NCBI GenBank assembly: GCA_950295325.1
Contig: OX485805.1
Span: 11,160,501 to 11,224,500, forward strand
Length of the DNA stretch: 64,000 nucleotides
Direction of reading: 5' to 3'
Origin: Polytrichum commune
Taxonomy: Eukaryota; Streptophyta; Polytrichopsida; Polytrichales; Polytrichaceae
Shown here one piece after another: positions 19,656-63,454 of this stretch. The notes under the pieces are model-generated. The model saw only the letters and a list, made by a program, of their open reading frames with translations, was not told the origin of the DNA and made no database searches. A program made the position numbers and the translations under genes. How positions within the stretch are numbered: position 1 is the stretch's first letter; each line of letters begins with the position of its first letter.

Positions 19656-20233
19656 TGATCAAGCTCGCACCTGTTGCAAGTTTTCAGTGTAGATCCGGAG
19701 GAGGGGAGAAAATCACAGAAAGAAATGAGAAGGGAAAGAAGAGCCGCAAAGGAAAGCGTCAGTCTAACGGAGAGTGAGCTTCGTTTTCGCCGTTTGCAGT
19801 GTCATCGGCTACGTACTTTGTCGATGGATCTTCCGCTCGTGGCCTTCACCACTATACTTTCCACCTAAATCGCGTCGCAGCGCTCTTGTGACGCGCCAAA
19901 TCCTTTCAAGGACGGTGGGTTAAGTTAGTCAACTCTGAACCTTCGCTCGGAAGCTCACCATAAACCAACTCCATCGACAATTGAGTGCAGCTCATTTGCA
20001 GCTAAGGGGGCTCAAGCGATTTCAGCTCAAACGAAGGCAAATCCTGGGTTTAATTCCAGCAGCAGGAGAGAATTTTGGGTGTAGATTAATCAGACGTCGA
20101 CAGCCTGATCGGTGCCTGGAGTGCGGTTTGGCTTTGCGGTTTCGAGGAGGTAAGGAGGAGCTGGAATTGGCGTATCTAGGGAACGGAAAAAGGTTTCTAG
20201 CGTTGCAGCTTTGTTGGAATTGTTTTTGGAGCT

Positions 20234-20974
20234 ATGGCGTACTCTGTTAGCCAGTTTGTGGCGGAAACGCGAGACGAGCAAGCAGCACAAGGGGCTGCGT
20301 TCGAGGTGGAGAAGGATTGTTTCTTGCAAGTGAACCTAGGGACGCCGAGCGGCACGGGCAGCATCTTGAACCAGGTATGGATCAAGACAGGCTCCATGGT
20401 AGCCTATCAGGGCGACGTGAAGTTCGAACGCGAAGGCATCATGGACCACGGGTTCGGCAACATGGTAAAGAAGCACCTAACAGGGGAAGGCGTAACACTG
20501 ACACGCGCAAGCACCAAAGGCAGGGCGCAGCTCTACCTCGCAGACGCAGGCAAGCGAGTGACGATCCTTTACCTTCAAGGCGAATCAATTGTGGTGAACG
20601 GCGATGATTTGTTAGCGTTCGAGCCAACCGTCACGCACAAGATCACGATGATGAGGAAGATGTCGGCCATTGTGTCTGGCGGCTTGTACAATGTCAAGCT
20701 CAAAGGGCAAGGGTTTGTGGCCATCCTAACACACGGGAAAGCTCTTACCCTCATAGTGGCCCCCAATTACCCGCCTGTGTACACCGATCCACAGGCAACT
20801 GTGGCTTGGTCTGGGGACCTCGTTCCGGATTTCAAGACAGACGTGGGGTTGAAAACTTTAATTGGTCGGGGGAGTGGCGAGTCCTTCCAGATGAAGTTCG
20901 ATGGCAACCGAGGTGTCTCGGGGTTTGTTGTGATTCAACCTTCCGAAGAACTCAATACCACTGCATCATCGTAA
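20234..20974 (+). CDS. AIM24: AIM24-family protein
   Basis: This 246-residue, single-exon frame matches the AIM24 family (named from a yeast mitochondrial biogenesis protein, with bacterial relatives), a beta-rich fold whose biochemical activity is not established. The expected family order is visible: an N-terminal strand with Gln-Val-Asn-Leu, then WIKTGSMVAYQGDVKFER, a Gly-rich LTGEGVTLTRASTKGRAQLY block, the FEPTVTH and SGGLYNVKLKGQGFVAI segments, and a C-terminal Gly-Arg-Gly-Ser-Gly-Glu-Ser-Phe-Gln loop. The length is normal for the family. The ATG has a G at -3 and at +4, and no upstream in-frame start or obvious organelle presequence is seen, so location in the cell is left open. GC content is much higher than in the flanking DNA. 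A copia element sits about 280 bp after the stop, and the 3' region is duplicated at 36.45-36.88 kb. No disruption is seen. Confidence 0.9.
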   Translation: MAYSVSQFVAETRDEQAAQGAAFEVEKDCFLQVNLGTPSGTGSILNQVWIKTGSMVAYQGDVKFEREGIMDHGFGNMVKKHLTGEGVTLTRASTKGRAQLYLADAGKRVTILYLQGESIVVNGDDLLAFEPTVTHKITMMRKMSAIVSGGLYNVKLKGQGFVAILTHGKALTLIVAPNYPPVYTDPQATVAWSGDLVPDFKTDVGLKTLIGRGSGESFQMKFDGNRGVSGFVVIQPSEELNTTASS

Positions 20975-21903: not shown

Positions 21904-23160
21904 TGGCAAGCCAAGGAAAAATAGATATTAGCCATATACCAAAATTTGATGAAACATATTTTTCATATATGGAAGCATAGGTTAACATTATTATTCATAT
22001 CTAAGAAACTTTGTTCAATTGTAAGTGGGGCGGAGGGTAAACCTGTTCAACCCTATGCTACTAAATTTTTGGCCTGGACTGTAGTACTAATTGTTAATGA
22101 AACAGGTAGCATCATGGATTGGGAAGGAAAGGATACTAATCACTATATTCAGTAATTGGAGATTTTTTCATGATTTTGGGACTATTTAAGGACATGGTTT
22201 TCAAATAAAAACAAGAAAAACACAAAAATATACTCATTGTGACTTCATAACGTGATTTGCATGGGCAACACTAACCAATTTGGCACAAATACATGTCATC
22301 AAAATGAGGATATTGGACCACATAGTAAACCATTTGCATTTATTTTGGGACTTTCCAAAGTTTCCAATTAACGAATATAGTGATACTATCACATTAACAA
22401 TTATAACCAATTGCTTAGATAATAATGTTGTCTCACACATTCAATCCAAGTTAACTGTTAACCTCAAACGAGGCTTGGCAAGAATTCATAAGGATTTTTT
22501 GATTCCCATGATGATGTCACCAAAATGTATCTAAAAGACAATATTTATAATTTGAAATTGAAAGAGGAAGAAAGTACGGTTAGACATATTCACACATTTT
22601 GTTCAATGTGTGAACAATTAGCTGCCACATGTGCAACATTGTCCGATGACGATGCGGTGCTCCACTTGATGAGGAGCATCCCTCATATCGGAATTTCATT
22701 TCTTCCATGAGAAGACAACCTAGCTTAACCTTACAAACCCTAATCACATATTTACTACAGGATGAGACTCTTAATAAGAGCATAAATGCTATGGCAGATA
22801 GCACGTCCGCCCTATACATAGGTAAAAGATCTTATGTTCTGAAAGGAAAAATACAAAAACATTGGCCAACAATCATCTAGAGGAAGGGGAAAATGCCCAC
22901 TACTTCCTCGAAGTTTCATAATAATAATTTTAGGCCTAACATGAAAAAGAAACAAATTCGGTGTTTCAAGTGTAAGAAACTTGGTCATGGCATTAGAGAA
23001 TGTCAAGTAAGAATTGGAAAAGATAAGGCGATTGCAATTCAATCCAATGTGGTCATGAAAACCCCTAAATTATATGTAGTTGCATTAGAAGAAGGGAGTG
23101 ATGACTATGGTATTTAGATACCGGATCAATGAATCACATGTCTTATGACATTACCTCCTT
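21904..23160 (+). pseudogene. copia Gag and start of protease, decayed
   Basis: Gag probably starts with the ATG at 21904 (MASQGKIDISHIPKFDE) and soon hits a stop. Further pieces in several frames carry helical Gag segments (EEESTVRHIHTFCSMCEQLA, 22570-22690) and a zinc knuckle CFKCKKLGHGIREC (about 22962-23003, pattern CX2CX4HX4C). The protease active-site motif Asp-Thr-Gly-Ser lies at about 23117-23128. The frame is cut at 23160 in a Thr-Ser-Phe-Val stretch and resumes at 32466. These domains package RNA and process the polyprotein in an active element; here frameshifts and stops have destroyed them. Confidence 0.85.
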
Positions 23161-23266
23161 TGTCGTGTAAATAACGATCATGTGTCACTGCAGCTCGAGT
23201 ACCAACCACCACTAACAAACAACACTAAAATATAGCAAAGTCACACATAAACAACACACCTCGACA
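23161..23266 (-). repeat. putative 3' LTR (or LTR remnant) of the gypsy element
   Basis: On the minus strand this 106-bp block starts TGTCGAGGTG right after a purine tract and ends TTACACGACA at the insertion boundary, as a 3' LTR should. It is very short for a gypsy LTR, and no copy of it was found near 30.6-32.5 kb, so it may be internally deleted or highly diverged. Confidence 0.45.
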
Positions 23267-23595
23267 TGCCCCCTCTCAGCTGACTATGGAGTCCCGCCAA
23301 GCAGCTAGGACCAACGCCAATCTAAAGGGCATGGATAATAAAAGATTGCTCCGCAACTAACTAGTGTGGTAAACGTTATTCCAAGGAACTGTAGGCTGGG
23401 TGCAAGGTGAGCCCCATCTTTAATCGCCTCTGATGTTTGGCCATCAGATCCCAAAGAATTAAATTCACCGCCTCATGTTGATTGCGTATCTAAGCCATAA
23501 CTCCTCATTTTCCATTTGGGCAGACACAAGATGATGAAAACCACACAGGATCATTGAGTACGATTGGTGGAAGCACCAAGTACCGAAGATCCTCG

Positions 23596-23730
23596 ACAGC
23601 GAGGACAACTCCACTGTCCAGATGGTAGAGAAGTCAAGGGTGGCCTCAAGTATGCCATGTGCCAATCGCGTTGACACTGATCACACAAGAGCATAGTAGC
23701 CGCTCATTTCTTCTCTCCACACACAAAACA
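23596..23730 (-). pseudogene. PHD zinc finger at the C-terminus of gypsy Pol
   Basis: After the integrase C-terminal region the frame shows a PHD finger. It has CFVC (first Cys codon at 23728-23730), an 11-residue gap containing an in-frame TGA (23704-23706), then LLCDQC, then a His four residues on, and finally PSGQWSCPRC (last Cys codon 23596-23598). The Cys that should follow the His is Tyr (TAC at 23650-23652), one G-to-A step from TGC. The Leu-Arg-Pro-Pro-Leu motif and the Trp before the last Cys pair are present. PHD fingers of this type usually read histone H3 tails, so this could play the targeting part that chromodomains play in chromoviruses. That role is inference. Confidence 0.85.
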
Positions 23731-26527
23731 TGGAAGACCCTCTGGCACAACGGCCAGTTCATGATGAACTGTACCCTCAATAGGTAGATGACATGGAGCA
23801 CAATTTTTGGAATGTTCGCGACATTCCCTGCCATCCTTGCCTTCCAACAACAACAAACCACTCGGCAACACCTCCTTCACCCGAAGGATAGTGCGCCCCG
23901 CCCTGACATCCAATGTCGTAGGCGCCTCACGTTGAAGATAGACATAATCCCTCTGCCGGAATCTCCGCAACTGAGGTCACGTTTAGATTTAGATTTAGAC
24001 TCGGGAGAATAGGCTCACGTCCATACAATAACTGATACGGGCTGTAGGATGCCAAAGAGGCCTGCCTACTAAATCGATAGCCTATAGCAATCCAAGGCAA
24101 CATAAGGTCCCAATCCCGGTGGCTTCCCCGAGGTAATCCATACTTCCTCAAGCCACGCTTAGTTGTCTGAACAACCCGTTCAGCCAAGCCATCTGCCTCC
24201 GGATGATTCCGAGAGGTGGTACGGTGATCTATGAGTGCCTTAGTGCACAACTCCTCAAAAACACCAAGGAACTCCCTCCTTTGGTCTGTCAACACCTCAG
24301 CCGGTGCTCCAAAACGTGCTAACACATGATCCAAAAAGGCGGCCGCGGCCAACTCTGCCGAGTTTTGGGGTAGAGCAACAAGCTCAATCCACTTGCTAAA
24401 ATGGTCCACCATCACCAAAACGTACTTTGCTCCACGTGGTGTAACCACCAACAGCCCTGCAAAGTCCAGCGACCAACGGTAGCCCAATCCCATAATAGGT
24501 AAGGGCTGTAACTGAGGTGATAAGGTGTTAAAGCTAGACTTGACCCGGTCACAAACTTCACACCTCCCGACATAGGCAGCCACCTGCTGATACATGCCAG
24601 TCCACCAATATTGGCCACGTAACATCGAATGTGTCCTGCGTATGCCAAAATGGCCAAGTTCCTCGTGCACTTGTCGCACCAAGGAGGCCCTCTGATCCGG
24701 CCTAGGAACAATACGCCTTGTGCCATCCGGCCACAATCGAAATAACAAACTGTTCTCCCAACGGAACCTTGTTACTCGATGTCCAATCCAATCCCTTTCC
24801 ATTGCCGAAATAGACAAAAGAAAAGTACCCTGTTGAAGCTTATGCAATACGGGAAGATCCTCCCATATATCCGCAATAGCTTGAGGCCGATCGGTCTCAT
24901 TATCCAAGCCCTGTATCGGAATCACAACAGATGCACTAGAAAATAAAGTGAGGTAGGCAGCCGCGTGCCAACCTGGAACCGCCTCTCGATCATAATCTCC
25001 ATACCACCTGGCCCCAGTCAAGTCCTCATCTGAAGGACTTGGATTGCATGAGAGTCCATTTGCATCCATGTTGGTAATCCCAACACGGTGTACCACCTCA
25101 AAGTCATATTCCTGGAGTAACAAAGCCCACATAGCAAGCTTGCCAATAAGCTTATCCGACTCCTTGAGCCACCGTAACGGCTGATGGTCAGTTACTAAAG
25201 TAAAGTGTTGACCATAAAGATACGGCCGAAAATGGGCAATAGCCCATACCGCCACCAATGTTTCTCCCTCGTATGATGAATAATTAGCCTCCGCCGTGTT
25301 ATTGCTTCGCGAAGCGTAAGCAACAACATACTTCCGGCCAAAATCATCCTTCTAAGTGAGAACTGCTCCCAAACCCAATGAACTCCAATCCGTATGCAAT
25401 TGGAAAGATTTGGAGACATTTGGACGTCGAAGCACTGGAGCCGTACCCAGTTTCTGCTTCAATGTCTCAAACGCCTGTTGTTGCTCACGACCCCAAGTCC
25501 ACGGTTGGTCCTTGCTCGTGAGAATGGTGAGAGGCTTGGCGATCAAGCTAAAGTTCTTGACGAATCGCCGATACTAATTCGCCAAGCCCAAGAAAGCACG
25601 AAGTCTCGGCACATCAACCGGTGCCGGAATCTTCTGCAAAGCGTCCACCTTAGCTTGTTGTACCCCAAGACCTCCTGGAACAATCATATGCCTTAGATAT
25701 GCCAGCCAGTCATAGAAAAACTTACATTTGCCGTGGTGCAAGCGCAATCCCCACCGCTGCAACCGTTCAAAAACGGCTTGCAGACGCCTCACATGCTCAT
25801 GTGGTGTTGTGCTGAAGATGATCACATCGTCTATGTAATACTGAGCAAAGGGCAAGCCAGAGAGAACCTGATTCATCATCCGCTGAAACTCAGCGGGTGC
25901 ATTCTTCAGGCCAAATGGAAGAAACTTCCAATGATAAAGTTGATATTTCCCATCTTGATCAACTACCCAAAATGCGGTCTTCACCCGATCTCCCGTAAGT
26001 AATGGAAGTTGGTGATATCCGGATCTCAAGTCCAAGGTGCTAAAGACCCGAGAAAATCCGATGACATCGAACAACTCCTCCGGGATCGGCATGGGATACC
26101 GATCCGATTTGGTCTTCTGATTAACTGGACGGTAATCCCCACACATCCGCTTCTCCGTCCAATTGCCAAAGATATCCTTCTTCGATGACATAACTGTAGC
26201 ACAAGCATATTCCCCGTTGGAAAGTTCGATTAACCCTGATGCCAAGAGCTCTCGGCAACGAGCCTGAACGCCAATCCGCTCGGAAACACTGAGCCTGTAA
26301 GGTCTCCGAAAAATGGGATGGTCGTCCTCCAAGTGAATGTGGATGGGTTTTCCTTTATAACCTTCAAGATCCTGAAGGCTAAAAACAAAACATTTACGGT
26401 ACGAGCGAATAAATGCTCGTACCTTCCGGGCCTCAGCACTAGTGAGACAAGGGCCTAATTCAAGTGGCCAATCATCAAACTCTGTGGTCTCCCTTTCCAC
26501 TAGAAGAGAGCCACCTGGTGCTGGCAC
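23731..26527 (-). pseudogene. gypsy RT, RNase H and integrase, decayed
   Basis: RT occupies about 25574-26527. It has the SGLIELSNGEYACATVMSSKKD block, MCGDYRPVNQKTKSDRYPMP, the catalytic YIDDVIIF and FLGLAN. RNase H follows in the same frame (25000-25550), with LHTDWSSLGLGAVLT and LVTDHQPLRWLKES. Integrase lies at about 23927-24900, with a zinc-binding HEELGHFGIRRTHSML ... CEVC, the catalytic WSLDFAG and VLTDQRREF, and NHPEADGLAERVV. In-frame TAG codons stand at 25574-25576 and 25352-25354. A frameshift near 23930-23970 separates the integrase from its C-terminal tail (about 23731-23960), which ends in NCAPCHLP just before the PHD finger. This enzyme set copies and inserts an element's cDNA; the copy is dead. 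Confidence 0.92.
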
Positions 26528-26539
26528 GGACTCTAACTG

Positions 26540-26860
26540 CTAATGAGAGGAGGGGGCATTAACCATGCCCCCAACCTCCGTGCTAGCAATAGAGTCCATC
26601 CCCTCTTCATCACCACCAATATGTGATGATGAAGCCACCACCGGAGGTGAAGAAGCCAAAGCAGTATAAACTCGTTGAGCTTGGAGCTCCTCCATTACCT
26701 GCTGCTTGAATCGAAAGATTCGTTCGGCTTCTCCAACCCTGACATCAATTCCCTCCTTCATGGATGTGGACCGTTGTGCCCCCTGACCAGAATCCTCTGC
26801 CCCCAGAGACAATAACTGGTCACCATGATGCCGTTGCAATGCAAGGCATAAACTAACAGT
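26540..26860 (-). pseudogene. linker between methyltransferase and RT, gypsy element
   Basis: About 100 residues in the same frame as RT. They are acidic and Ser/Ala-rich, with a helical segment GEAERIFRFKQQVMEELQAQ that could form a coiled coil. An in-frame TAG at 26540-26542 separates it from the RT start region. No catalytic motif is seen. It probably joins the methyltransferase to RT in the polyprotein. Confidence 0.6.
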
Positions 26861-27790
26861 CCACACCATGCTATGGAGATCCATGGCTTGGCCCAATACG
26901 AAGCGTCGTTGGCCCTCAGAAAGGCCAGGAGCTGCGGTGGTACTAGTGCGGAAGCCCATGGCACGATCTCGTTTATATCGGCCAAGGGTTCGGTGTGGGT
27001 TTTGGTGTTAGCATCCCACACCATACCTGGCCCCTGATCGCGGAAGGCGAATGATTGTGGAAACGTCATAAAGGTGGGAAAGGCCCTCCGTGGTGCCCCC
27101 ACTTTGTTGACTAATGCCTATGGGGGTAAATCATCTCGAACAACCGGCAAAGAGGTCCGGTTTGGATCCAAGATGTGATCAAAAGGTGGAGTTACTGTAG
27201 AAATTGTTGCGGCCAAAGTAGATGACGGTGTGAGGTTGGTCTAAATCCACCGAGGCCGGTGGGCATAAGAACCAATGCTCGCAGCATCCACAAAAATGGG
27301 ATCTCCAAGGTGTTGATGAACATAATGATCGCTTTCCAATACCTTGTCCCGAGAGTCTCCCAACAATGGTACATTCTCGAAGATATACCTTGGCGGGGTA
27401 TGTTGGTGGGAAAACCACCACTGTATGAGGCGGATGAGGTCCCAAAATAGACTAGACCTGGGATCCTCTAGACCTCGGCCGGCTCCAGCATGTGAATGGC
27501 CCTGGCATGGTCATCCTGCAATTACCATATCCACCGGACCCAAGTGTCGTAAGTCGGCCTCACTGATGAGTGTAACATCACGAGGGAGACGTGAAAAACA
27601 CCCACGAATGGCAGTTGGAGGTAACTGCTGGGGGTACAATACCATCAATTGGTGAAGATGGTGACGAGCCACACGGGTGGACACTTGAGAGTTGTCCACA
27701 TAGACATACCGTCTAACCGTGAGGCCAGCCTCCAATACGGCCGCTAAGCTTGTGCCGATGCCCCCAAACAGTTCCACCAAAGTAATCCCC
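26861..27790 (-). pseudogene. C5 cytosine DNA methyltransferase domain in gypsy Pol
   Basis: The domain follows the protease without a break. Motif I is ITLVELFGGIGTSLAAVLEAG (from about 27786), with an acidic VYVDNS after it. Motif IV is GPVDMVIAG-stop-PCQGHS; the catalytic Cys is in PC, and the TGA at 27511-27513 replaces an expected Trp. Then come GRGLEDPRSSLFWDLIRLIQ, motif VI FENV (about 27370) and a motif VIII-like VDAASIGSYAHRPRWI, with a TAG at 27241-27243 at a likely Trp. A further TAG stands at 27118-27120. After a frameshift near 26960 comes MGFRTSTTAAPGLSEGQRRF and LGQAMD, matching motifs IX-X. FENV plus the Asp-Ala...His-Arg-x-Arg-x-Trp pattern is closest to DNMT3-type enzymes. 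An intact version would methylate cytosine in DNA, perhaps the element's own cDNA. Confidence 0.88.
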
Positions 27791-30615
27791 GCGTCTGGCG
27801 ACTGCCATAAAATGGGATGTGCCAATGCCGAGAGGACACCCGGTATGACCGGTGTCCTAGGACTGAGAGAGTGAACAATATCCTCGCACCTCCGAAATAG
27901 CTCGGCGGAATCACGCCAAGGAGGAAGGGGATCCTTGGGTTGGCGCACCAATGCACCCTTAGGTGCCATATCCCGTTGATCGTCTGTACTCCCCATGAAT
28001 GCCAATGACTCCTCCAACAATGCGGAACCATAAGGCAATGTGTCCACCATAGCACCACATCCAAAAACCATAGATAATGGTACTATGGTTGCGGCCGCCG
28101 CGAAAGCCACGGGAATAAGTTCCTTGCGGCCATCCCCAGCCGACCAACCTGGTCGGATCCACGCCTTCTCAGTCCAGTTGGCCAAACCAAAACCAAGAGG
28201 GTAAAATGCTTGCTGACCAACTAAAATGTCATAGTTGGTCGCATCCGTCACCGCACACCTAAGAAGAAGAGGTGCGGGTGAATCTCCATGCTTCACTCGG
28301 AAACTAAGCTGTAATGGCTCCCGAGTATAACACATGGCCCACTCCACGTGACCAATGGATGTGACAATGGTGAATGGACAGGGAGCCAAATCCTCGGCCG
28401 TCAACCTCAACTCTTGGGCAAACCTCTTGCCGATCATAACTGGCTGTGCCTTTGAATCCATCATCACACAACGGGGAGCAACCCGAGTAGCCTTGCTCCC
28501 AGTGCGACTGACCACCAAAATTCTGGTATCATTCACCATACGCACAACGCCGGGTCGAATGCCGCGGCGCTCGCGGACAGGTCTAGCAGCGACATCAGAC
28601 AGATAGGCTGCACCCGCGGATACTGGTGAATCATAAGACGTGGTCGGTGCCTTGTCATTTGAGGCGTGTGCGTCAAAAGACGCAATGGTCTCTGCCGCAA
28701 GTCTCGCTCGCCGTTTGGCCACACCCTCAGGATCTTCAGAAGCAGGGATGTCCGTAGTGGCTTGAGCCACGGTCAGAGAAGGTAAGGATGCCTTCCCTTC
28801 CAAAATCCTACCTGCTAAGTAAAAAACCTTAGCAGGTTGGAACTCTGGCGATGACCACTCCATGGCCGTGAACAAAGGTGTGTGCAACACTTTGGATGCC
28901 AACGTGTGCGCCACATCGGTCGCTGAATGTGAAACTTCATCGTTCGGATGACGACCACTGACAGATTGGACGACATCGGCCAATCCAAAAGATAATGGTA
29001 GTTGTGCCTGAACAATTTGGTCCGCGGGCGTATTGTCCCGAGCTCGCGAGCTTGCCACATATTCATTTGTGGTCGAAGGTATGGATTGTGACACGGCTTG
29101 AGCACGTGTCACGGCCGCGGAACTCACCACCTCGCCCGAGGCTCCGAACATATAGTAATCTGGAGTGGAAGAACTAACCTGAGCTCCGGAGGAAGACGGT
29201 GAGGCCAAGATTTGGCCGGATGACACCAAGCTTTGGAACCTCTCCTTCATAGCTCCAATCTTCGCCTCCAACGTCTTCTCCCGGTCGGAAGAAGGATGTT
29301 TCTCAGGATGGAGAGCAAAGCAGTTCTCTACCGCGTGATTGTTCCGCCCACAATGGGAAGACTTCAACTGCTTGGGTAACTGATTACCCGTCGTCCCCTT
29401 CGCCGAGCCCTTAGCGGGAACAAATGGTTTCCGCTTCGGAGTAGTGACGGTCTGGGCTTGCCTTTGCTTCGAAGGACAGTCCTTCTTAGCATGGCCGGCC
29501 TGGCCACAAGACCAACAATACATGGTCTTGTCTACCTCGGCCTCCGCCAATCCTGCAGCCGCAACCGGAACTCTTCGGGATTTGCTAGAATCTACTAGTA
29601 GGGATACCAAATCAGTGGCGTCGTGCTGACACAATGCACGATCACACTGCTCCACAATGGCGAATGCCTCTGCGAGTGTCGCCCGACTACCATAATCCAT
29701 GATGATCATGGGCAACGCCAAGTCAAGGAGGCGTTTGTCAATCTTGGACAAAAATACCTTCATCAATTGACTTTCCGCAAACACACCTCCAGATTCTCTG
29801 GCAAACCTCGCCAACCTCGTATACATGGTACGAGGTGTATCGTCATTTTTCCGTCTAAAATCTTGTGTCCGCTGCATCTGGTCCCGACGGAAACCTCTGT
29901 ACTCCTCATGTAGATGCAGCTCAAATGCCCGCAACGGCTCAAAAACTGGCGGAGCCCCCAAAGAGGCTAAAGCCACCTGGGTAGCCTGGGCATAACGGGA
30001 GAGTGGAAGAATGGGGCTCGACGTACTCGCCACAGCGGGAGCAGAATCCTTATCCTTGGGTTCACCAGAAGAAGCTCCCTCCACGTCCACCACAAATACT
30101 CCCTCCGGCACCTCCGATTTAACCTCAGGGACGGCCATGAAACTGGAAGCTGCGCCTTCTTTCAATGCGGATACCAACTCAACCCGAGTCTCCCAGTACC
30201 GCTCCACCTGGCGCAGCTCCATTCAATGAGCCTCCGTCCACTGCTCATAAGTTTGGAGAGCTTCATGCTCCAAATGCTGAGGCAGAAGCTCGAACGCATA
30301 CCAATCGTTAAAATTGGTATTGCATTGGCGTTTCTCTCGCATCCACGTACGAAACCGGATTTTCCAGTCTTGCAGAGAAATGGTCCCTCCTCGACCGGAA
30401 AACCGGTCCCGTATCCCTCCCCTAGTCTCCTCCTCCATATCGTCAAAGGTTCCCACCCACAGGACGTGAGACCGAGTAATAGTCCCCCACGCCGAAGTAG
30501 GCTGAAAAACCTCGTTGGGTGCTACCACTGGTTCAACGTCCGAGAGATCCGAGGGATGACCTTCCGATGCTCCTGGGGACGGAGAACGATAGTGTTGAGT
30601 ACGAGTTGTAACCAT
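27791..30615 (-). pseudogene. gypsy Gag and protease, decayed
   Basis: Gag starts at the ATG ending at 30615 (MVTTRTQHYRSPSP). An in-frame TGA at 30223-30225 is followed directly by the same frame. The capsid-like part includes FELHLHEEYRGFRRDQMQRT and MYTRLARFARESGG. A zinc knuckle CWSCGQAGHAKKDC lies near 29530-29490, followed by a second, partial His/Cys cluster (SSHCGRNNHAVENC). The protease region (about 28100-28540) has MMDSKAQPVMIGKRF, where the usual Asp-Ser/Thr-Gly catalytic triplet reads Asp-Ser-Lys, and NYDILVGQQAFYPLG further on. The frame runs straight into the methyltransferase. The Lys for Gly change would be inactivating unless the family differs. Confidence 0.88.
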
Positions 30616-32461
30616 AAACCCACAATGGGATGGTCACCCAATCAACAACCCAAATGAATTAGTATCCAGGTACAAAGAAAAAAAAAAGTCAAATGCAACC
30701 TACACCTGCAACCACCACCAAAACTTATGGTCTGCTGGTCATTAACCCAGCCTCACCACAAGTGAAAACAAGCACTGCCCACTTGGTGCACAAACAAAGG
30801 TCCCGTCGGTCATTAATCCGACCTCACCTCCACATTACCCTATCACAATCTAGGACTATACAAAATGGGGCAGTACTAGAACACTTCAGCACTACAGCCT
30901 GCCACAGGGGAAGGTACCAAAACAAAATACAAGAAACAATGCAAGAACAGCACTGGATCCTCTTCCCCAAAACAACATTCAAGCAAAAATTGAAAATGAC
31001 CGCAACCAACTGGCACCCGCCTGCAGTTGGTGGTCAAAATGAAGAGTCCCTATTGCTTAAGAAAAAAAAAATGCTACCTATGCACATCTCTCATCTTCCC
31101 ACTACAACCTAAGAATCCCTCCTCACAAGAATGCCGGGAATATGTGTTGACAAACACAATTCGACCCTAATAATAATTTATTTTAGGCCGAACGGAATTC
31201 CATATGCCACCCAATTTCCAATGACACACCTCATAAATTTCGTGCAACACAATCTCTAAAAGCAATCCCAAACACCTTAATATTTCATAAGAAATTTGGT
31301 TTCATCTTGTATTCATGATTAATGAAAACAAGAAATTGACCCCTTAGAGAGAAAAGAAAAATGAGAAGTTGAAGGAAAACATAAATTAATAAATTAATGT
31401 AATTAAAAATAATGCCTTAATTAATTTAAAATAAAAATAAAAATAAAAATAAGACGGATTGTCACTACGTAACCGGTTGGAATTGCACACACCCGGGTCT
31501 CAACCGCTTACGCCCAAAGAATCTCCCCGATCCACGTATTAGTTATGTGGGGGGGGGGGGGAATTAATTAACCCCAGCTGAGGGAGGGAGTTAATCAATT
31601 AAATAAACCTAGCTGCAGGCAGCCAGGTACAAGCAAGCCGGCAAGTACAGGTAGCAGCAGGCAGGTACAGATAAGCAGTAGGCAGTATAGGCAAGCAGCC
31701 GGCACATACAGATAAACAGCCACCGAGGGCCGGCAGGTGCCACAGGCGGCCTTCTACACAGGGGCCTGTGCAGACAGCAGAGGGAGGCAGGCCGCCTTTT
31801 TTTTTTTTTTTTTTTTTTTTTTTGGGTCACAACTGTGATCCCCTTTGAGGATCAAAAATGCCCCTACAACTCTCACTTCACAAAATCATGCTTGTGAAAA
31901 ACTCATGACAAGAAATTTCGTGTAGTATTTAGAGATTTCTCACCACAATTCAAAGTGATGTGTAAACTTCACAAGCACACCTCTTTCTTCTTGTTTCTCC
32001 GCTAATCCGCGATGTTTGTCATTCTCCACTCCAAAATTCCGCAACCACTTGTCCTCACATTTTTTCTTGAATGTTGGAGCTCAAAATTTGAAGAAAAGAG
32101 AAGGAATCATGTACATTCTTGCCAAGTGAGAAGGAAGAGAGTAGAACATTCATAATAGCTCTAAATCTCTCTTCAAATGCATACAACTAGTCAAGCTATC
32201 TCTCACTCCACCAAGGGAGAATCCAAGAGTGTAAGTAAGGGAAGAAGATTTCAAGATTTATTGCAAAATCATGCAATCTACACCTCACACAAGCTCTCTC
32301 CACACACTAACTCACAAGACTTGACTTGGCAAGAATGCCAAGCCAAGGAGGAGGTTCCTCACTTAGGAGCCTTCCTCTCCACATCTAGATTCATTCATCC
32401 AAATCTAGATGAATGAAATCCAACGGATAAGGTGCGGCCGTCGACGCCGCATACCGTGACA
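30616..32461 (-). other. gypsy 5' untranslated region and putative 5' LTR, unresolved
   Basis: This 1.8-kb noncoding block lies between Gag and the high-coordinate insertion end. On the minus strand the outer end starts TGTCACGGTATG at 32461 and contains an AATAAA-type signal (ttgcaataaatc, near 32265), as expected of an LTR. No matching copy exists at the other end of the element, and I could not place the LTR inner border or the primer-binding site. It also holds a run of 27 T (31797-31823), a poly(G) run near 31549-31561 and GCAGGTACA-rich simple sequence at 31615-31740. Confidence 0.5.
31615..31823. repeat. CAGGTACAR-rich simple sequence and 27-base poly(T)
   Basis: Degenerate repeats of caggtaca and gcaagc occupy 31615-31740. 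They are followed by a T run at 31797-31823. Confidence 0.8.
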
Positions 32462-35400
32462 CCTTTGTTACCTATAAAAAATGGGACAAGGTGATGATAC
32501 CACACATGCAATTGTTGGTTAAGGCGATGCATGTATTTCACTTAATGATGGCCAAGTTAGAGAGATAAGCAATTTGCTACATGTGCCAGACATCCAGAAA
32601 ACCTATTCTCAGCCAAACAATTTTGATATTGCGGGTGGCAAAATTTTCATTAAAGATGGTAATTGCATTCTCCGCAATTCTAGTGGTCTGGTGATAGCCA
32701 AATGCACACTAGGAACAAATTTGTATAAACTTGGTATGACCCATAGACAAAAGGAAAACAATCCCATTAGCCAAAATATATCCAGTCTCAATTTGGCCAG
32801 CCTTTGGCACAAAACATTGGGTCACATTAATAAAAGATGCTCGGGGGGGCCACTGTGTTAAAAAGTTAAGGATATAGGTGCGAACAACCACTATTTTATA
32901 GGGAAGTATTACTTTCAATTTTTTTTTTTTCACATGCTATCATTATGTAAATTTCTACTTTGGGTCAATAGAAAAATGGCTTGCATTACTTATAATTTCA
33001 AATTACCTATTATTCCATACCCTACTGTACTTTAAAGATGTCCAGTGCCATTTTTGATACCCTATATTATTCTTAAGCCCAATTATAAATTTTTGCTCCC
33101 ATGTTTTTAAAATACCCTATCATTTGTTTGCACGTATATTGCTACTCCAACCAATGACTATCCCCCCCCCCCCAAGAAAAGATGTCTATATGAAGTTCAA
33201 AGTGCATCTAAGGGGATAGGTCGTTTTGATGCAAGTGCTTTGTCATTATGTCCATGGTGTTTGAAAGGGAATCAACACCGAGAGAAATTCCCTAAAGTAG
33301 ATGCTACAAGAGCACAAGAACTTTTGGAGATACTTCATAGTGACATTTGTGGCCCCCTGTGGACTTCACTTTTTCCAGGATGCACTCACTTTCTAACATT
33401 CATTGCTGACAAGTCTTACTATACAAAAGTTTATCTTCTCACATACAAATCCAAAGTTGTACAAAAAATTTCAAGAATATAAAATTGAAATGGAAAACCA
33501 GATTAGGAAGAAGATCAAAGTTTTGAAATGTGATAATGGGGGTGAGTCCAAAACCATAAATTATAATTTGTTTTGTCAAACTCATGGAATCAGATGCCAA
33601 TTCACTACACCCTATACCCTACAACTAAATGGAGTTAGTGAAAGGAAAAATCAAACCCTTTAGGAGCAATCTTAGCCATGCTCTTTGGTTCTGAATTGCC
33701 AAATCGATATTGGAGTGAAGCAATCCAAACTGCTAATTATATACAAAACAAGGCCCTTACTAAAGCCTTGAGTAACAACGCAACTCCTTTTGAAGAACGG
33801 TTTGGGATTCCACCTCAACATTGGAATACCAAATCTTGTGGGAGTATTAATCAACCCACCCAATCAACAATCAATCATGTCACAAGGTAACCCTTACAAA
33901 GGAGATTGTAGATTTAAATCACACTATTCTTGAAGAATTTTCAAGGTTAGGTGTTCATGATGAAGATACTAACTTAAATCATGAGGCTCCAAATACAAGT
34001 CAACCAAGGCAAAGTTCAATTGCACATCTACGAAGTCATTTAAGGAAAAATCCACAACCCCATTCACGTCCCCAACGAGAAACTAGAAAACTTACAAACT
34101 TCATTGAAACTATAGAAGGTCGTAAAATACCACGAGCTTTAATTTATCATAGTTGTATCATTATTGAGCTTAATACTTACAAATATTGGGCCTAATGCCT
34201 ACCATTGGGCCTAATGCCCACCATTGGGACGAAGCCAACCAATATGAGTTGAATTCACTTAAGGAAAATGATACATGGACCATGTTAGTTCCTTTGCTGA
34301 GTGAACATAAGTCCATCATTTGCAAATGGATCTTCAAAATTAAAACAAAGTTGATGGCAATGTAGCTAAGTATAAGGCATGTCTAGTTGCTCGCGGATTT
34401 GGCCAAATCTATGGTGTGGACTATGAAGGGACCTACTCCCCTATTGCCAAAATCACCTCAATTTGGGTCTTACTAGCTGTAGCTACCCAATTTGATCTTG
34501 CAATTCATGAGTTTAATATCAAGACTAGTTTCTACATGGTTTCTTAGAAGCATAAATTCATTTGGAATTACATGAGGGTCTGAAAGAATGGGGCAACAAT
34601 GATTTGGTCCGTAAGTTACTTAAGGCATTATATGGTCTACATCAGTCTTCACGGGCTTGGTACTACAAACTAAACACCTAGTTAGTCGCACAAAGTTTCC
34701 TACACACAAATGTTGACTCGAATATCTATATTAAGACTTACAAAGACTCCACTTTCATTATCGTAGTTGTTTATGTAGATGACTGCATTGTTATAAGTCA
34801 ACACCTCCATTTTTTTATATGAATTGAAACGTACTTTGGGAAAAGAGTTTGAAATGATCTATGTCTTGGTATACAAATCATCCGTAATCGAGCTAAAGGA
34901 TGGATGATGTTACGCCAAGAAAAATATTTGAGAGGATTTTACATTGATTTGACAAGGAGAATTGCTATCCCATTGCTACCCCAATGGAAGCTAGTTACAC
35001 GTTGTCCCAACTTCATCTCTTTCAACAAGATGGAATCGACCAATTTTCCAATATTATGCCATATCCTCATGTTGTTGGATGCCTTATGCATGCCATCATG
35101 CAAACAAAACCCTATTCTGCATTCTTTGTGTGCAACTTAGCCCAACATTTATCTAAATTTGACTCCACTAATTGGGAAAGTGTTGAAAGATTGCTGAGGT
35201 ATATTAATGGCACCTTCTTTTTTGGAATAAAATACTGCAAGAATCCCAATGGTTGTATCTTGCTAGGCTACTCCAATGCAGATTGAGTTGGTGACAAGGA
35301 TACCCGACGACCAACATTAGGTTATTATTATCTACTTGTTGGCACTATAGTGTCTTGGGCGAGCAAGAAACAAATACATGTGGCATTATCCAGTACCAAA

Positions 35401-42335: not shown

Positions 42336-43354
42336 TCAAGCTCTTGAGACGGCCCTTGCCCATCGCGCGAGTTTTTCTTGGCCTTTCCGTCGGGCCAAGC
42401 TAGGAATATCATCCTCACAGCTTGTAAGTTGGAATCCCCACGGCCTCAACACCTTCTCATAAGCTTCGACAGAGACAGCATATGGTGGCCCGCCTTCGTG
42501 GTCACCGATTGGAAAGATGAGAGTGATGAGCTCCCCGTCCAGCGCAAGGAGCTCTGCCATCTTCTCCGCCCACTGCGGCCTTACACTCGGCGGAAATGCA
42601 CAAAAGAACGTGTAATCAAATATCACATCGAACTTTTGTGGCGGATTGTATGTGAAGAAATCAGCATTCAGAAATTCTACAAACTCAGAGCTGGAACACT
42701 TCGAAGCATGTGCCTTGGCAACCTGGAGAGCCGTTTCCGAAATGTCTAGGCCGACAACTCGCCGATTTGGACTGGCCATGGCCACGACATCATAGCCAGA
42801 GCCGCAGCCGGGAACCAGAACCCTCCCTTCCCGAATTTGATTCTCCTTCACCAATTGAGCAACCACAGGGTTCACCCCCTGTGCATCCCACGGGCTAGTG
42901 CCCTCCTTCCACAACTGCTCCCATGCTGTTTCCATAGGTTGAGCCGCCGTGACTTCGCGTAACCTCGCTTGTAACTTCTGATGAGGTGTTAGCTCGGCAG
43001 CCTTCGTATCCATGTTCGGGAATGGTTCCATGATCCCGTAATTCCAAGATCCTGGCCCTGGTGCTGTGTACGTGCGACCCTGCCACAAGAAACTGAAACA
43101 AAGTCAACCACATAGACAAGGAATGTTATCGACCTGTCCACGTACCTATCATTCCTGAATTCAATTGCGCACTACCAAAATGGCATCGACCTCAAATCAC
43201 CAGACAGAGCGACAATTTCTTCCGCACACTCAGACTCCGAACAACCATGAGATACGACAATTGAACCAATATCACTTCTAGCGAGAATTGAGTATCCGGA
43301 AAGTAAGATTGCAGACAAGAAACGGACACATATGCAGTCACATAAACCAGCCAT
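42336..43354 (-). CDS. HOL: HOL-type SAM-dependent (thiol/halide) methyltransferase
   Basis: The core frame, 42336-43088 (250 residues), matches plant HARMLESS TO OZONE LAYER proteins, which methylate halides and thiocyanate or bisulfide using S-adenosylmethionine. Visible features are WEQLWKEGTSPWDAQGVNP, the SAM motif I VLVPGCGSGYDVVAMASP, VVGLDIS, FDVIFDYTFFCAFPP, PQWAEKMAELLALDGELITL and the C-terminal KGQEKLARWAR. Length fits the family. Upstream, 43177-43354 (minus) is an open frame with a hydrophobic start (FLSAILLSGYSILA). A possible GT-AG intron (donor after TTTTG at about 43177, acceptor tttgtttcag near 43098) would join it in phase, adding a signal-like N-terminus; this exon is inferred only. 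A different upstream frame at 43494-43748 could be another leader. A 3'-half pseudogene lies at 38101-38440. Confidence 0.85.
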
Positions 43355-52979: not shown

Positions 52980-55640
52980 CTGGACGTTTGCCGGTTACAT
53001 GTCCATGGCCTCCCTGTTGCGCACTAGAGTCTAAAACGTGAGCCTCAACTACCCTCCGTCCACGCTCTTGTGTTGAACAACGACGAAGATTATATTTGGC
53101 AAATCAAATTTGCTCTGGTGGAATAGTAACCTTTAGGGGTTCAACATCTTGATGTTGTGGTAGAGGCCAAGCTGACAAAATGCAATCGATTGGTTGCCAG
53201 TCAAGAATGGAGTATTTCAAATCACGTTTCCACTTGAACTTGGGGTTTGAGTCTTACCCATTTCATTTCTTTGATAGGCCTTTGGTTGTTGAAGTGAGAG
53301 TGAACCACTGTACAAGAATTTGACGTGGATGTTCTCCCGTGACTGCCAAGTTAGTTGGAGACAAAGCACAACAAACCCAAATGGGTTTATCTATATCTTG
53401 TTATTGGGGACGTAGTATGAGGAAATGCCCCTCATGCACATTATTGGCGATGCGAAAAACAGGTGCAAGACGAAGGTTTGATGACCAACATATTGGTCAT
53501 CCGGTTGGTGCTCTTCCCATAGCTCTCCATTATGCAAGAATGAATGTGCATTTGCTTCAATTATACTCCGTGGCCATAATCCTTCGGACAGTGGCAATCC
53601 AACAATGTTTATATTTGTAAGAGGTGTTTCTAATGCCTCCATCACCCCTATCCAATATTGCAAAATATGCTTGTGTGAACCCATATATCCTCATGTCTTG
53701 TCGTGATCACATATTGATTGCCAATAGTCAATGAGCCCTTGCAAACCCACAAGAACATCTTCCAGTTTGACCATACCTTGAGGTGGTGCAGGAAAGGGGT
53801 CCCCGGATAGAATACATGGCTCCCCTATTATGTTGGATTTCCACATCAATATACCCTCTTTGGGAAACCACTCCTCGTATGTGCTAAGCACTTTGTATTG
53901 CATAACATGCCAACCATCATCTCGGACATAGAATTTGAATTGTTGGGCCTTTGTGTGCTCAATGAGTTTGTCCTTATCATTGGGAATGTTCTCACTAACA
54001 AAAGCCCTCCAGTCGGAAAGTTCATCTATCATATGTGGAATGACATGAACCTTTTCCATATCCATGTACGACTTCATGAGGAGGGGGATAGTGGGGTAAT
54101 CGTGTTCACGTAGGTCCATATTCCATCTTCCAAATGATGCATCGATGTTATGGGTATGACCAAGCAATAGGTAAGACACATGCACCTTTATGAATATTCT
54201 TTTCGCCATGAGCATAGACCAAAATCCCTTTACAAACCTGCACTTGTTGTTCTCTCAACAATTATCAAGCTAAACATGCAGAACATGTGGAAGAAGAATA
54301 GTTGAGATGGGCTCCGTGGTGGAGCTCGTAATCCCTCCAAACATATATCCCTCCTACAAAAAATAACATGATAAAAAGGTGACCGCCCAACACCGTGGAA
54401 AAAACGGCGAGATGATGACATTGGGGATTCCTTCAAATTACGGAGAAGTCTCGCGAATGAACCTACAATATGGTTGCAATCTCCAGGGTACATGTCCAAT
54501 GCATAGTGGGCATATCTTTCATCTCCATGTCCATGAGCCATCATGCATGTTATAGAAAGTAGTAGTGTTGTAAATATATATATCAATATCTTTGTTCTTG
54601 GAAGCAAAACAAAGAGATATAGTTTTGCCATGGTCCATTTTGTCCTGAATGATAGTCAACACCTTTCGGGGGTGTTCAATTGAAAGAACCATTATGCAAT
54701 GGTAAGCATTGCGAGCAGATTTTTGCTACGCTTGGTGCTTCTCCAGTTGTTTCGAAAAACGAATGTAGGCAGTTGAACCTTTCACATGCTGAAAGAATAA
54801 TTGCGGCAAACAAATCATACTTCTCACAATAAGCAAATTTGTTACCAATCCTCTTCTTTATCTAGTGCTTAAAAAAATTATTCCTTATTTTGCTCAGAGT
54901 TGAAGAAAAAAATTGGTTGCAAACTGCATTTGTCATTCACCTACAAATATGCGAGATGCAAAACATTAATGACACCTCTCACAAACATCACTTCAAGAGT
55001 CGGCTTGGTACCATAATAACAAACCATTCATTTTATGTTTACTGATCGACACTTATACCAAGCATATAAGTCAACTATATCATATGCTTACCTCGTTGAT
55101 TGTAATCAAGAATTTCTTCCATTTTGTTTCACGTGGCAACACCGTTTCAGCAACATGTGTATCATTTGGCAAAGCGTGGGCCTTGTGAGACATTATGTCT
55201 ACTTTATCTTTCAATAATATCGAAAGTGTGGCAGTAACTTGCTGGGTGAATATACTATTCCGTTTCATGTTTAGGTTCCCATGGTTGCGTGGATGCATAC
55301 CGCACTTGAATTCTAAACGGTTTCTATAGAATGTCGTTTTTGAGATGGCAAATATGTGTCTTCATGTTTTTTCACATACATTGCGACCACTCAAAGTGAC
55401 AACCTTCCCAGAGACTCCCGGAAGTGTATGTAATTAGCCATGGACCTTGAGTTGTTTAGCATGTTTCATCCTTGTTGAACAAATATAAAACTTGGTTTGC
55501 AACACAAATGTCTCATCCCTGGGAAAGTACCTCATGCACTCGCAATCACAACATAGAATCGAAGAAAGTTGATAAATGCTGATATTATTAAGTATTTGCA
55601 ATTTTTTGGTCAATCGAATATGCAAGGTTATGCATGATGA
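52980..55640 (-). pseudogene. DUF7869-type transposon-associated gene, decayed
   Basis: The minus strand carries a shattered protein in several frames. Its best part, 53691-54215, reads LLLGHTHNIDASFGRWNMDL and IPLLMKSYMDMEKVHVIPHM. That is the Gly-His-Thr-His...Asp-Ile-Asp-Ala pattern of the DUF7869 region, common in transposon-like genes of plants and animals. Just upstream a frame reads LDNC, one or two stops, then NNKCRFVKGFW, matching the usual Gln-Leu-Asp-Asn-Cys start of that domain. Further upstream pieces (54400-55600) include ERYAHYALDMYPGDCNH and WRHIFAISKTTFYRNRLEFK. Downstream, 53391-53684 continues the C-terminal side. It is an old, non-functional copy. Family naming is from motif memory. 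Confidence 0.65.
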
Positions 55641-61450: not shown

Positions 61451-63454
61451 TTAAGATGCCGAAGGTTGTAGACGGCAGGTCTCAATGTTTTGTTGCAAAT
61501 CGCTGCCGACACATTTGCGACACACAAAGAGACCGAAAGGATCAACGCGGATCTTGGTCGCAAGCAACCTCGCGTAATTCTTCTTCCCCCAAAAGGATTG
61601 CTTCCACCTCGGCTCATCGCTGTCGGCTTCGTTGAGATAAGCCCCCGAGTCCGGGTACGCTTTGTGCAACACATGGACAAACACCTGCTGCGACTTCCGA
61701 GCCGCATCTTCCTCCGCCTGCGTAGAATTCCACGACCACGTACCTATGACATGCCAGATGCCTCGTCGCCATGCGGGCGTTACCGAGGTCACACCATGAG
61801 GATCGGCTCCGCGTACGCCTGGCCCGAGCACCATGAGGCCTTCGATTTCTGCCGTGCCTGACTTGGACATGGCAGACACTAGGGTTTTGGCGAGAGCGTT
61901 AGGGTTTCGTAGAGCGGAGTAAGGGACGATGCGGGAGCCTAGTATGGCCCTTCCCCCGGTGGAGTCCGTCCCCGTTTTGCTTGTTTGGTAGACTAATGCA
62001 TGCCAAGCCTGGAACGAAGGAGTTGTAGATATAAAAGTCGTGACGGTGACGTTGTGGAGCTGTGAGAAAGCTTGTGCTACAGGGGTGAAGGTTTTATTCG
62101 CTGCCTCTTCGGTCTGGGGAGCGAGGAAGAACGCTATAAAGCTAGTGGATCCAAATGTCCAGTATCCTCCCCAGTGTGCTGTGTCGATTGCAACCGTGCT
62201 TCGTGACCACACTGTCAAGATTTCCTCTTGTTGTGCGGTGCTCCACATTGTTCCGGTTGAGGGATACACTACGACGTATGCGAAGACGAGGTGAGATGGA
62301 TTGCGGTGGAGTTTGTAAGTTACTGAGGTGACGATCCCGAAGGTGCCGCCCCCGCCCCCGCGGAGGGCGAAGAAAAGCTCCGGGTCTTTGCTGCATGCAT
62401 TTAGGGTTTGGAGCCTCCCGTCTGCGGTGATGACTTGAATTTCCAGAACGTTGTCCACAGCCAGGCCGAAGGAAGGGCCAAGAGCGCCATGGCCACCTCC
62501 TTGGACGTAACCCCCGGTGGCACAAATGGTGAGCGCCATGCCACCAAGCACGATGTAGTCTGTGTTGTTGAGCTTGTCATAAACCTCGCCCCAATTCACA
62601 CCTCCGACAACGGTGATCGCAGGCACAAAATCAGTATGTTTGCATTTACCACCAGCTGTGGGAAATGTGTAATCGATGGTTATGTTCTTCATCTTGTGCG
62701 TCCAGATGAGGAAGGAGCCCGGTGCCGTGCTCCGGCCCATGTAATCGTGGCCGCTGCTCTTCACCGCAATGCGTAGCTTGTGCTGAGCTGCGAATTTGAC
62801 GGCCTTTTGAATGTCGCCAACGCTTTCGACTTGCAAGCCCAGGACCGCCACACTCCCTTGGCGGCATGGCGAACTCTTAGGGGCCTGGAAGTCGCAACGT
62901 TGCGCGCCTTTGTCTTCCCAGTTGTCCAGCTGCATGCTTCCCGCGTTGTCTGCTCGCATGTAGGCGTCTCCAGAATTGGCCTGGATGAATTCGCACCTTG
63001 TTGCATTGAAGTGCGGGACGTGGCAAGGGTATCCTGATGTTGCAGAAATTTCGAAGTCAATTCATCAGTTCGGACGCCACGACAAAGCACAAACAGGATC
63101 TTTTATCGACACACCCTAAATCTCGATTAAGCCGCTCGATGTGTATCAGCGCAGATTAATGTGGATCACGGCAGTCATGTGAACTTCACATGAAAAGGTG
63201 GAGAATCCCTGTAGATACAAGGTGAGAGAATTTTTATTAAAATTGATCGATGCGTGCATAAGTAACCCACCTGTTGGTTTCGGAGCAATCAATCGACCAC
63301 CGACGGTTTTGTTGAACGCATCCCATTCCGTGTCATTTGGCCAACAGTTGTCCGAAGCCACACAGCGACATTCGTGTAGATTCCCACTTGCAGCTCCAAT
63401 CAGAACTACAAACAAAGTTAAGGCTGAAACCGCTAAAACCTCGATGCTATACAT
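61451..63454 (-). CDS. BBE-like FAD-linked oxidoreductase, secreted
   Basis: Two exons are joined by a 237-bp GT-AG intron. Exon 1 is 63454-63271 (donor AG|GTGGGT) and exon 2 is 63033-61451 (acceptor aacatcag). The joined frame is 588 residues. It starts with a signal peptide (MYSIEVLAVSALTLFVVLIG). Next is the Cys-rich lead CRCVASDNCWPNDTEW, then FNKTVGG. The PCMH-type FAD domain has VKSSGHDYMGRS, whose His is the usual flavin attachment point, and GGYVQGGGHGALGP. The C-terminal BBE motif reads YLNEADSDEPRWKQSFWGKK and NYARLLATKIRVDPFGLF. Such enzymes oxidise alcohols, sugars or alkaloids with O2, giving H2O2; the substrate is unknown. The lead and FAD region look more like fungal secreted oxidases than typical plant BBE proteins. 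The Cys of bicovalent plant BBEs is not at its usual spot. No disruption seen. Confidence 0.88.
63034..63270 (-). other. intron of the FAD oxidoreductase gene
   Basis: 237 bp, starting GTGGGT and ending CAG on the minus strand. It joins Lys-Pro-Thr-Gly to Tyr-Pro-Cys-His in phase 1. The joined reading matches the expected spacing of this enzyme family, which supports the splice. Confidence 0.85.

Follow-up and report, generated by a model that had tools for sequence, protein, structure and literature searches.

Within the window, the whole 64,000-nucleotide stretch of Polytrichum commune DNA analysed here, the minus strand encodes at 27789-26819 a DNMT3-class C5-cytosine methyltransferase (MTase) domain that lies between the protease and the reverse transcriptase (RT) of a retrotransposon with a gypsy-type pol region. 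The element is framed by the target-site duplication AAGG (32462-32465 on the 5′ side, 23157-23160 on the 3′ side) and begins with a 334-bp repeat A (32128-32461, minus strand, as are all element features below; 96.1% identical to A of another copy), which starts with TGTCACGG. Directly after A comes a candidate primer-binding site (32113-32127), whose first 14 nucleotides are complementary to a stretch within A (32337-32324), and further downstream the ORF1 region (26540-30633, first Met codon 30615-30613, 89% identical to an open ORF1) encodes Gag, protease and MTase. Two gag zinc knuckles lie within 29320-29517: the first (29517-29476) matches PF00098 at E 0.0022 and 18.5 bits, under the cut-off of 20.8, and the second (29352-29320) was recognized by eye. 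The retropepsin active-site region is found at 28429-28470, where the DSG of an open copy reads DSK, and in the protease of relatives the Asp_protease_2 match falls under the Pfam cut-off. ORF1 is closed by a conserved in-frame UAG (26540-26542) followed by CAGTTA (26534-26539), which corresponds to the CAR-YYA hexamer of TMV-type readthrough (PMC2754532), and the ORF2 region (23551-26539; 94.6% and 96% identical to open ORF2) continues in the frame in which ORF1 ends. It covers the RT (25574-26539; PF00078, E 2.5e-27; YIDD at 25837-25826), RNase H with the integrase zinc finger and DDE core (23927-25351; PF17917, PF17921 and PF00665) and a C-terminal PHD finger region (23551-23736), while a polypurine tract (23267-23277) and a 106-bp repeat B ending in GACA (23161-23266; 96.2% identical to B of another copy) complete the 3′ end. 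Direct repeats of at least 60 bases were not found around the element in the window because this copy has the A-int-B form, with a single 3′ B, and Rfam and tRNA scans of the window returned no match.

The surroundings hold three single-frame host-like genes, encoding an AIM24 domain (20201-20968, plus strand), a TPMT-like methyltransferase (42342-43103, minus) and an FAD/BBE oxidase (61457-63061, minus), together with a DUF7869 frame (53697-54254, minus) and two tandem arrays (43-541, 5.5 copies of a 91-bp unit with 97% matches; 1181-1550, 3 copies of a 124-bp unit). Beside the 5′ end of the element, a weak GAG-pre-integrase match on the plus strand (32523-32858; E 0.0018, under cut-off) is perhaps a copia-like remnant.

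The MTase motifs, whose names (I, IV, VI, VIII, IX and X) follow common usage, appear in canonical order, with motif I LFGGIG at 27771-27754, the motif IV Pro-Cys within IAG*PCQG at 27522-27499, FENV at 27381-27370, HRPRW from 27261 and the motif IX-X pieces thereafter. The original prediction of such motifs in order between retropepsin and RT is thereby confirmed by motif positions as well as by Pfam and PDB searches, and its claim that the domain reads on from the protease without a break holds for one part of the domain but not for all of it. A 903-aa frame (30222-27511) runs unbroken from gag through protease and motif I to the residue before motif IV, but stops and a frameshift interrupt the MTase itself: a TGA (27513-27511) stands just before Pro-Cys, which together with FENV, HRPRW and motif IX lies in a piece in the same frame after it, two TAGs follow at 27243-27241 and 27120-27118, and past a frameshift near 26974-26971 motif X is found in the frame 27007-26540. 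The MTase-bearing frame thus continues beyond 26861 to the UAG at 26542-26540, and ORF1 of the window copy holds, besides the frameshift, four in-frame stops before that UAG, the one in gag being TGA 30225-30223. The protease site is altered as well (DSK), ORF2 contains four stops and has suffered a deletion, and the PHD finger is disrupted, a TGA interrupting its frame and one Cys having become Tyr. Together these lesions mean that the window copy is dead.

The Pfam check proposed with the prediction returned a PF00145 DNA_methylase match in the window that scores 53 bits (cut-off 22; E 4.5e-14), and DNMT3A entries were the top PDB sequence matches of the window MTase (E 4.1e-10). An AlphaFold model of the MTase domain of an open copy, computed from 18 sequences, reached a pLDDT of 77.4 and a pTM of 0.81, with low confidence at residues 113-126 (the Pro-Cys loop) and 244-264, and in a Foldseek comparison of this model with the PDB the best 50 of 941 matches were all DNMT3A or DNMT3B entries, some of them complexes with DNMT3L (rank 1: E 5e-14, TM 0.77 by target length). 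By its canonical, non-rearranged motif order and DNMT3-like predicted fold, the domain is a DNMT3-class C5-MTase. Two other affiliations were considered and rejected: a bacterial origin, as DNMT3A/B head the PDB lists, where HaeIII follows at 1e-6 (window search) or 0.008 (second PDB search), HhaI at about 1e-4 and chain 3g7u, named only "Cytosine-specific methyltransferase", at about 4e-6 to 6e-6, and the DRM type, as the motif order is not rearranged and DRM2 scores only E 0.077 (window search) or 1.3e-4 (second PDB search), with chain 4onj, named "DNA methyltransferase", at 1.9e-7. Neither an ADD nor a PWWP domain was found in ORF1 by Pfam, and such companion domains are not universal, protist and algal DNMT3s without them being described in the accessible text of PMC12344493. 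The same source associates DNMT2 and DNMT6 with RNA modification, which, together with the position of the MTase on the Gag side and the zinc knuckles in the same ORF, would fit an enzyme that modifies RNA, such as packaged genomic RNA; the DNMT3-like sequence and predicted fold, and the lack of any chain named DNMT2 among the 49 and 48 PDB matches listed, speak against this reading, to which we assign a low probability.

To place the element in its genome, 407.8 Mb in 64 contigs were searched, the window lying on contig C3. A search with the MTase piece gave 150 scored matches among 406 first-look candidates and a search with PF00145 gave 123 among 353, mostly at element places; combined, they define at least 211 distinct MTase loci, a few of which may be host genes. 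Contig C4 carries 70 of the 211 listed loci, 48 of them at about 40-60 Mb, and its density of 1.18 listed loci per Mb compares with 0.32-0.55 on the other six large contigs; the clustered region is perhaps a pericentromere or sex chromosome. We read 20 copies of the window subfamily (subfamily 1), a biased set since they were picked through an MTase match with a long open frame, and five of them combine an ORF1 open as far as the conserved UAG with a complete ORF2 (about 1366 and 1048 codons). When A repeats were compared within single copies, five copies gave 99.4-100% identity, which indicates that the family moved recently. The genome holds at least two subfamilies of the MTase element: the second was found by its RT, which is 89-91% identical to that of subfamily 1, and its MTase is 61-63% identical and present in all six copies read.

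Of the 26 genome copies analysed, 20 picked by MTase and six by RT alone, every one carries the MTase in this position. Among 133 scored RT matches, 96 have a listed MTase match 0.5-4 kb upstream, and two of the 37 others, which lack one among the matches listed, were read and both carry the domain. We thus met no copy without the MTase, and no relative in this genome lacking the domain at this position, in a check that covered these 26 copies and all but 35 of the 133 RT matches. That the domain is no chance neighbour, as had been proposed, is borne out by an identical domain order in all 26 copies, in a related 9285-base contig (L002) and in liverwort and charophyte proteins; on these grounds a nested or chance insertion was rejected, and the probability that chance neighbourhood, nesting or an assembly error explains the locus is practically nil.

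Protein searches returned 79 relatives with the window MTase as query and at least 33 with the protease-MTase region of L002, including proteins of Marchantia polymorpha, Calypogeia fissa and Closterium, liverworts being the nearest named relatives among the matches listed; the Klebsormidium protein P0214 was found by RT, among the best 120 of 2905 matches. A contig search yielded two relatives, L002 and L003, the latter a 33%-identical stretch in a Bacteroidia MAG. L002 (CADCWO010000201.1) is filed under a Synechococcales cyanobacterium MAG, although it is a plant-type member of the family, in which two long ORFs are open; its contig ends overlap by 127 bases, and an Rfam scan of it gave no match. 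The relative P0006 is filed under Obscuribacterales, and both records are probably misbinned eukaryotic DNA. Phage records compared with 572 bases of the MTase region gave no match, and viral contigs gave a single relative, a 440-aa bacterial-type MTase.

Across 24 elements, MTase and RT distances correlate (r 0.86, with none of 2000 permutations as high; two of the 24 pairings rest on equal contig size alone), and sequence difference between lineages is about fourfold greater in the MTase than in the RT (62-65% versus 90-91% identity). Subfamily 2 groups with L002 by its MTase (97/95) and with subfamily 1 by its RT (SH-aLRT 95), so the ORFs may have been exchanged by recombination; both trees carry long-branch warnings that leave their deep order unsure, and the MTase tree took in element relatives without host DNMT3, DRM, CMT or DNMT1. 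In 19 proteins with both domains, the MTase precedes the RT in 15 and follows it in four (P0185, P0189, P0211 and P0229), and hence the domain sits at two places in the clade.

The integrase ORF ends in a PHD finger in many of the listed gypsy-clade members, among them L002 (3492-6635), P0113-P0116, P0159 and P0201, the last a Klebsormidium protein without a listed MTase. In L002 the finger is intact (PF00628, E 4.3e-10). Chromoviruses carry a chromodomain, of which the PHD finger is possibly the counterpart. We found no description of a PHD finger in a gypsy integrase in the accessible open PMC literature.

Selection was gauged by pooled pairwise dN/dS. In 10 open ORF1s (45 non-independent pairs) it is 0.23 for gag, 0.27 for protease, 0.39 for the spacer, 0.24 for MTase and 0.87 for the 100-aa tail; in eight open ORF2s (28 pairs) it is 0.04 for RT, 0.08 for RNase H, 0.28 for integrase and 0.83 for the PHD finger, the last on few changes. 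With all 21 copies, the values are 0.23 for MTase, 0.75 for the tail, 0.24 for integrase and 0.38 for PHD; as adding the broken copies leaves the MTase value where it was, this value points to past selection that the copies have in common. Synonymous divergence is uneven between segments (dS 0.137 in MTase against 0.018 in integrase), and such strong differences suggest that the copies are mosaic. Between subfamily 1 and L002, bootstrap ranges are 0.07-0.16 for MTase (168 of 300 replicates undefined, dS near saturation), 0.12-0.24 for gag (220 undefined), 0.20-0.76 for the tail (39 undefined) and 0.03-0.16 for PHD (215 undefined), with point values of 0.041 for RT and 0.017 for integrase. As judged from these substitution patterns, the MTase has been under purifying selection within the element. 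The residues of motifs I, IV and VIII, including Pro-Cys and Arg-x-Arg, are identical in 21 of 21 copies, the motif VI Glu is kept in 20, the integrase triad (D, D, 34 residues, E) in all 21 and each C4HC3 ligand of the PHD finger in 20 or 21. DNMT3L is a module kept for its fold, and the faster evolution of the MTase relative to the RT and the low model confidence of the catalytic loop (residues 113-126) could be read as signs of a similar non-enzymatic DNA- or nucleosome-binding role. The constancy of the catalytic residues within the genome, and across 18 relatives in which Pro, Cys, Glu and the first Arg vary little or not at all, argues against it and makes such a role very improbable.

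The position of the MTase relative to the UAG bears on how much of it would be made. ORF2 is in the same frame as ORF1 with just the UAG between them, and since this codon is present in 20/20 copies of the window subfamily and 6/6 of the second it does not reflect decay. The junction reads TAG CAA TTA in 20/20 subfamily 1 copies, TAG CAG TTA in the window and at a second, partial place in L022, and TAG CAA TCA in 6/6 subfamily 2 copies and in L002, so that UAG-CAR-YYA separates in-frame ORFs in 28/28 junctions; as copies within a subfamily share descent, the independent evidence amounts to three lineages rather than 28 cases. On the two sides of the junction, identity between subfamily 1 and L002 amounts to 34% for the ORF1 tail and 72% for the first 57 residues of ORF2, and the metagenome proteins P0005, P0006, P0007 and P0009 stop at the matching place, as seen in the proteins without their DNA. 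UAG CAR YYA is essential for TMV readthrough, at about 10% in vivo, according to the accessible text of PMC2754532, and by this analogy the UAG is predicted to be leaky, in which case the MTase should be made at the level of Gag and the RT at about a tenth of it. In-frame UAGs between two frames are likewise known from TMV, with CAR-YYA 3′ of the UAG, and from gammaretroviral Gag-UAG-Pol (PMC4178896), and readthrough was proposed earlier for the rice gypsy element RIRE2 (PMC2754532); what differs here is that a DNA methyltransferase lies just upstream of the stop. The prediction that the MTase was part of the polyprotein therefore needs refining: the domain belongs to the element and is translated on from the protease, but it ends ORF1 before the conserved UAG and so stands on the Gag-protease side rather than simply within one Gag-Pol polyprotein. 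In P0159 (metagenome) and the predicted proteins P0214 (Klebsormidium) and P0111 (Closterium), whose gene models could skip a stop, MTase and RT are joined without a stop, and a Gag-level dosage is thus not general.

From these observations we infer readthrough, packaging, substrate and benefit as parts of one model, which as a whole we regard as rather probable. ORF1 would yield a Gag-protease-MTase protein closed by the leaky UAG, occasional readthrough of which would add RT, RNase H, integrase and PHD finger; the MTase, produced at Gag level and packaged in the particle, would be cut free by the protease and, before integration or as it proceeds, methylate cytosines in the double-stranded cDNA of its own element, while the PHD finger may recognize histone H3 and in this way direct integration. 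Most likely, the benefit would be a methyl mark under which newly made DNA passes for silent DNA of the host. The enzyme may accordingly be produced in bulk and may act on DNA of the element itself, self-methylation of the cDNA being likely. In yeast, the related Klebsormidium MTase produced no methylation, a result that its authors, in the accessible text, call inconclusive because DNMT3B failed too (PMC5890265).

A trace of methylation was sought in C-to-T changes relative to one open copy (20 comparisons, the three nearest copies having too few changes). In the seven most diverged copies the rates are 0.062-0.088 at CG, 0.052-0.090 at CHG and 0.045-0.076 at CHH, with reverse transitions at 0.048-0.063. 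CG exceeds CHH in L020 (0.084 versus 0.045) and in the window copy (0.088 versus 0.076), and a clear excess is absent in four of the 20 comparisons (L013, L016, L018 and L019). The CG excess being mild and uneven, heavy CG methylation left little trace, and CG decay gives little support to cDNA self-methylation. An MTase with the host genome or old copies as its main target, adding methylation that silences host genes or related copies, limits harm and thereby makes the family tolerable, would accord with the at least 211 MTase loci listed and with the host-directed effects discussed in PMC5890265, as far as accessible. We nevertheless consider it unlikely, as a benefit in cis accounts more readily for selection acting on the MTase within the element; free enzyme from many copies would help all of them alike.

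The termini set the family apart from canonical LTR elements. Five subfamily 1 copies have the arrangement A(334)-internal-B(107)-GC-A-B and two subfamily 2 copies the arrangement A(about 432)-internal-B(107)-GC-A-B, so that the A...B-A-B pattern holds in 7/7 copies with both ends compared; among the 20 copies, 3′ ends are B-A-B in 15 (one with a short last B), B alone in four and neither in one. Target duplications of 4 bp accompany 9/9 insertions examined (ACCC, GAGA, GATG, TACA, CCAC, AAGG, GAAG, ACTT and ATAC). The B-A junction forms the palindrome GACAGCTGTC (GACA-GC-TGTC) in the 15 of 20 copies with B-A-B, in both subfamily 2 copies and in L002; the latter has a single instance of the pattern GACANNTGTC, and so do 34 of 200 shuffles. 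The junction GC is missing at the outer element ends. With the polypurine tract abutting B and the candidate primer site abutting A, a conventional LTR would be B-A, the A-B join would correspond to a two-LTR-circle junction, and opening of a circle by the integrase at the palindrome would follow. For the A-int-B form, recombination between B repeats is an equally good explanation.

Immediately downstream of A, the sequence forms the complement of a segment within this repeat, over 15 nt in five subfamily 1 copies, 14 in the window, 13 in two subfamily 2 copies (7 with the first A border, 13 with the border at the A-B junction) and 13 in L002, where the border of A is set by the primer-site match itself. 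Control comparisons in 300 windows of one copy gave at most 11 nt, and the pairing shows compensatory differences across three lineages. Tf1/sushi-type LTR retrotransposons are self-priming, with a primer site directly after the 5′ repeat that is complementary to the element's own sequence, and the likeness suggests possible self-priming of the Tf1 type here; the complement differs in lying inside repeat A.

In terms of class, the pol order protease-RT-RNase H-integrase with a DDE integrase is that of Ty3/gypsy, the protease match being under the Pfam cut-off, whereas the two full flanking LTRs of that class are missing, and the A...B-A-B repeats define a gypsy-type pol with split repeats rather than a canonical LTR element. 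Split direct repeats A-coding-B-A-B and, in several lineages, a methyltransferase are shared with DIRS-1-like elements (PMC5890265, accessible text). The present element departs from them in three respects: its Pfam tables list no tyrosine recombinase family, it has a DDE integrase and 4-bp target duplications in place of a recombinase without duplications, and its MTase is of the C5 rather than the N6-adenine type. A search of the open PMC literature listed no paper on split repeats in gypsy elements.

The closest known element is KnitGypsy-Dnmt3 of Klebsormidium nitens (de Mendoza et al. 2018, PMC5890265), which, as far as the accessible text goes, likewise carries a non-rearranged Dnmt3-type domain in a gypsy element under purifying selection and, by a figure legend, has repeats in a DIRS-like arrangement; a Dnmt3-type domain before a gypsy RT and split repeats place the moss element in the same group. 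In P0214 of Klebsormidium, a partial gene model (KFL_009030040), a single predicted protein holds the MTase followed by RT, RNase H and integrase, with identities to our element of 41% in MTase and 42% in RT. In the moss, by contrast, the MTase precedes a UAG-CAR-YYA stop and the genome has at least 211 listed MTase loci, young copies among them, while the charophyte host has fewer copies than Symbiodinium (PMC5890265); a PHD finger, a leaky stop or a self-complementary primer site are not mentioned for KnitGypsy-Dnmt3 in the accessible parts of that source. SymbioDIRS-Dnmt3 and SymbioLINE-Dnmt are further retrotransposon-encoded C5-MTases, the former also combining split repeats with a Dnmt3, and they differ from the present element, with its DDE integrase and 4-bp duplications, in being a tyrosine recombinase element and a LINE, respectively (PMC5890265). 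The attribution of captured dinoflagellate methyltransferases to copia in the original prediction was mistaken, as the primary account describes the elements concerned as LINE and DIRS, with no DNMT in the dinoflagellate Copia (PMC5890265); a later paper does name "LTR Copia and DIRS" and streptophytes (PMC12344493), Copia being in conflict with the earlier account. Such transposons are stated to be absent from land plants such as tracheophytes (PMC6338049), and MTase-bearing gypsy elements in bryophytes were not found described in the accessible open PMC literature, including PMC6453930 and PMC9033089; annotated bryophyte proteins of this kind exist, such as Marchantia hypothetical proteins. 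Beyond the original prediction, the analysis adds an MTase ending ORF1 before UAG-CAR-YYA, the split repeats, the palindrome, the 4-bp target duplications, the PHD-bearing integrase and the candidate self-complementary primer site.

A more specific reading, which we put forward only tentatively and hold to be possible but doubtful, joins the termini with the enzyme: the DDE integrase would open a one- or two-repeat circle at GACA^GC^TGTC, cutting after CA on both strands and leaving as a 2-nt overhang the GC that the outer ends lack, which would yield both A-int-B and A-int-B-A-B insertions, and the Gag-level DNMT3 enzyme would methylate the circle in or after the particle. If true, the MTase would be adapted to a DNA intermediate that is circular and chromatin-like, and this would explain why DNA methylases occur in split-repeat elements with different integration enzymes, namely DIRS, SymbioDIRS, KnitGypsy and the window family. 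Why a genome parasite carries its host's silencing enzyme has been a question since 2018 (PMC5890265). The at least 211 listed MTase loci, the recent insertions and the putative UAG dosage switch make activity, packaging and methylation of the intermediate directly testable, and split repeats, DDE integrase and methylase together offer a concrete hypothesis for the purpose of the enzyme.
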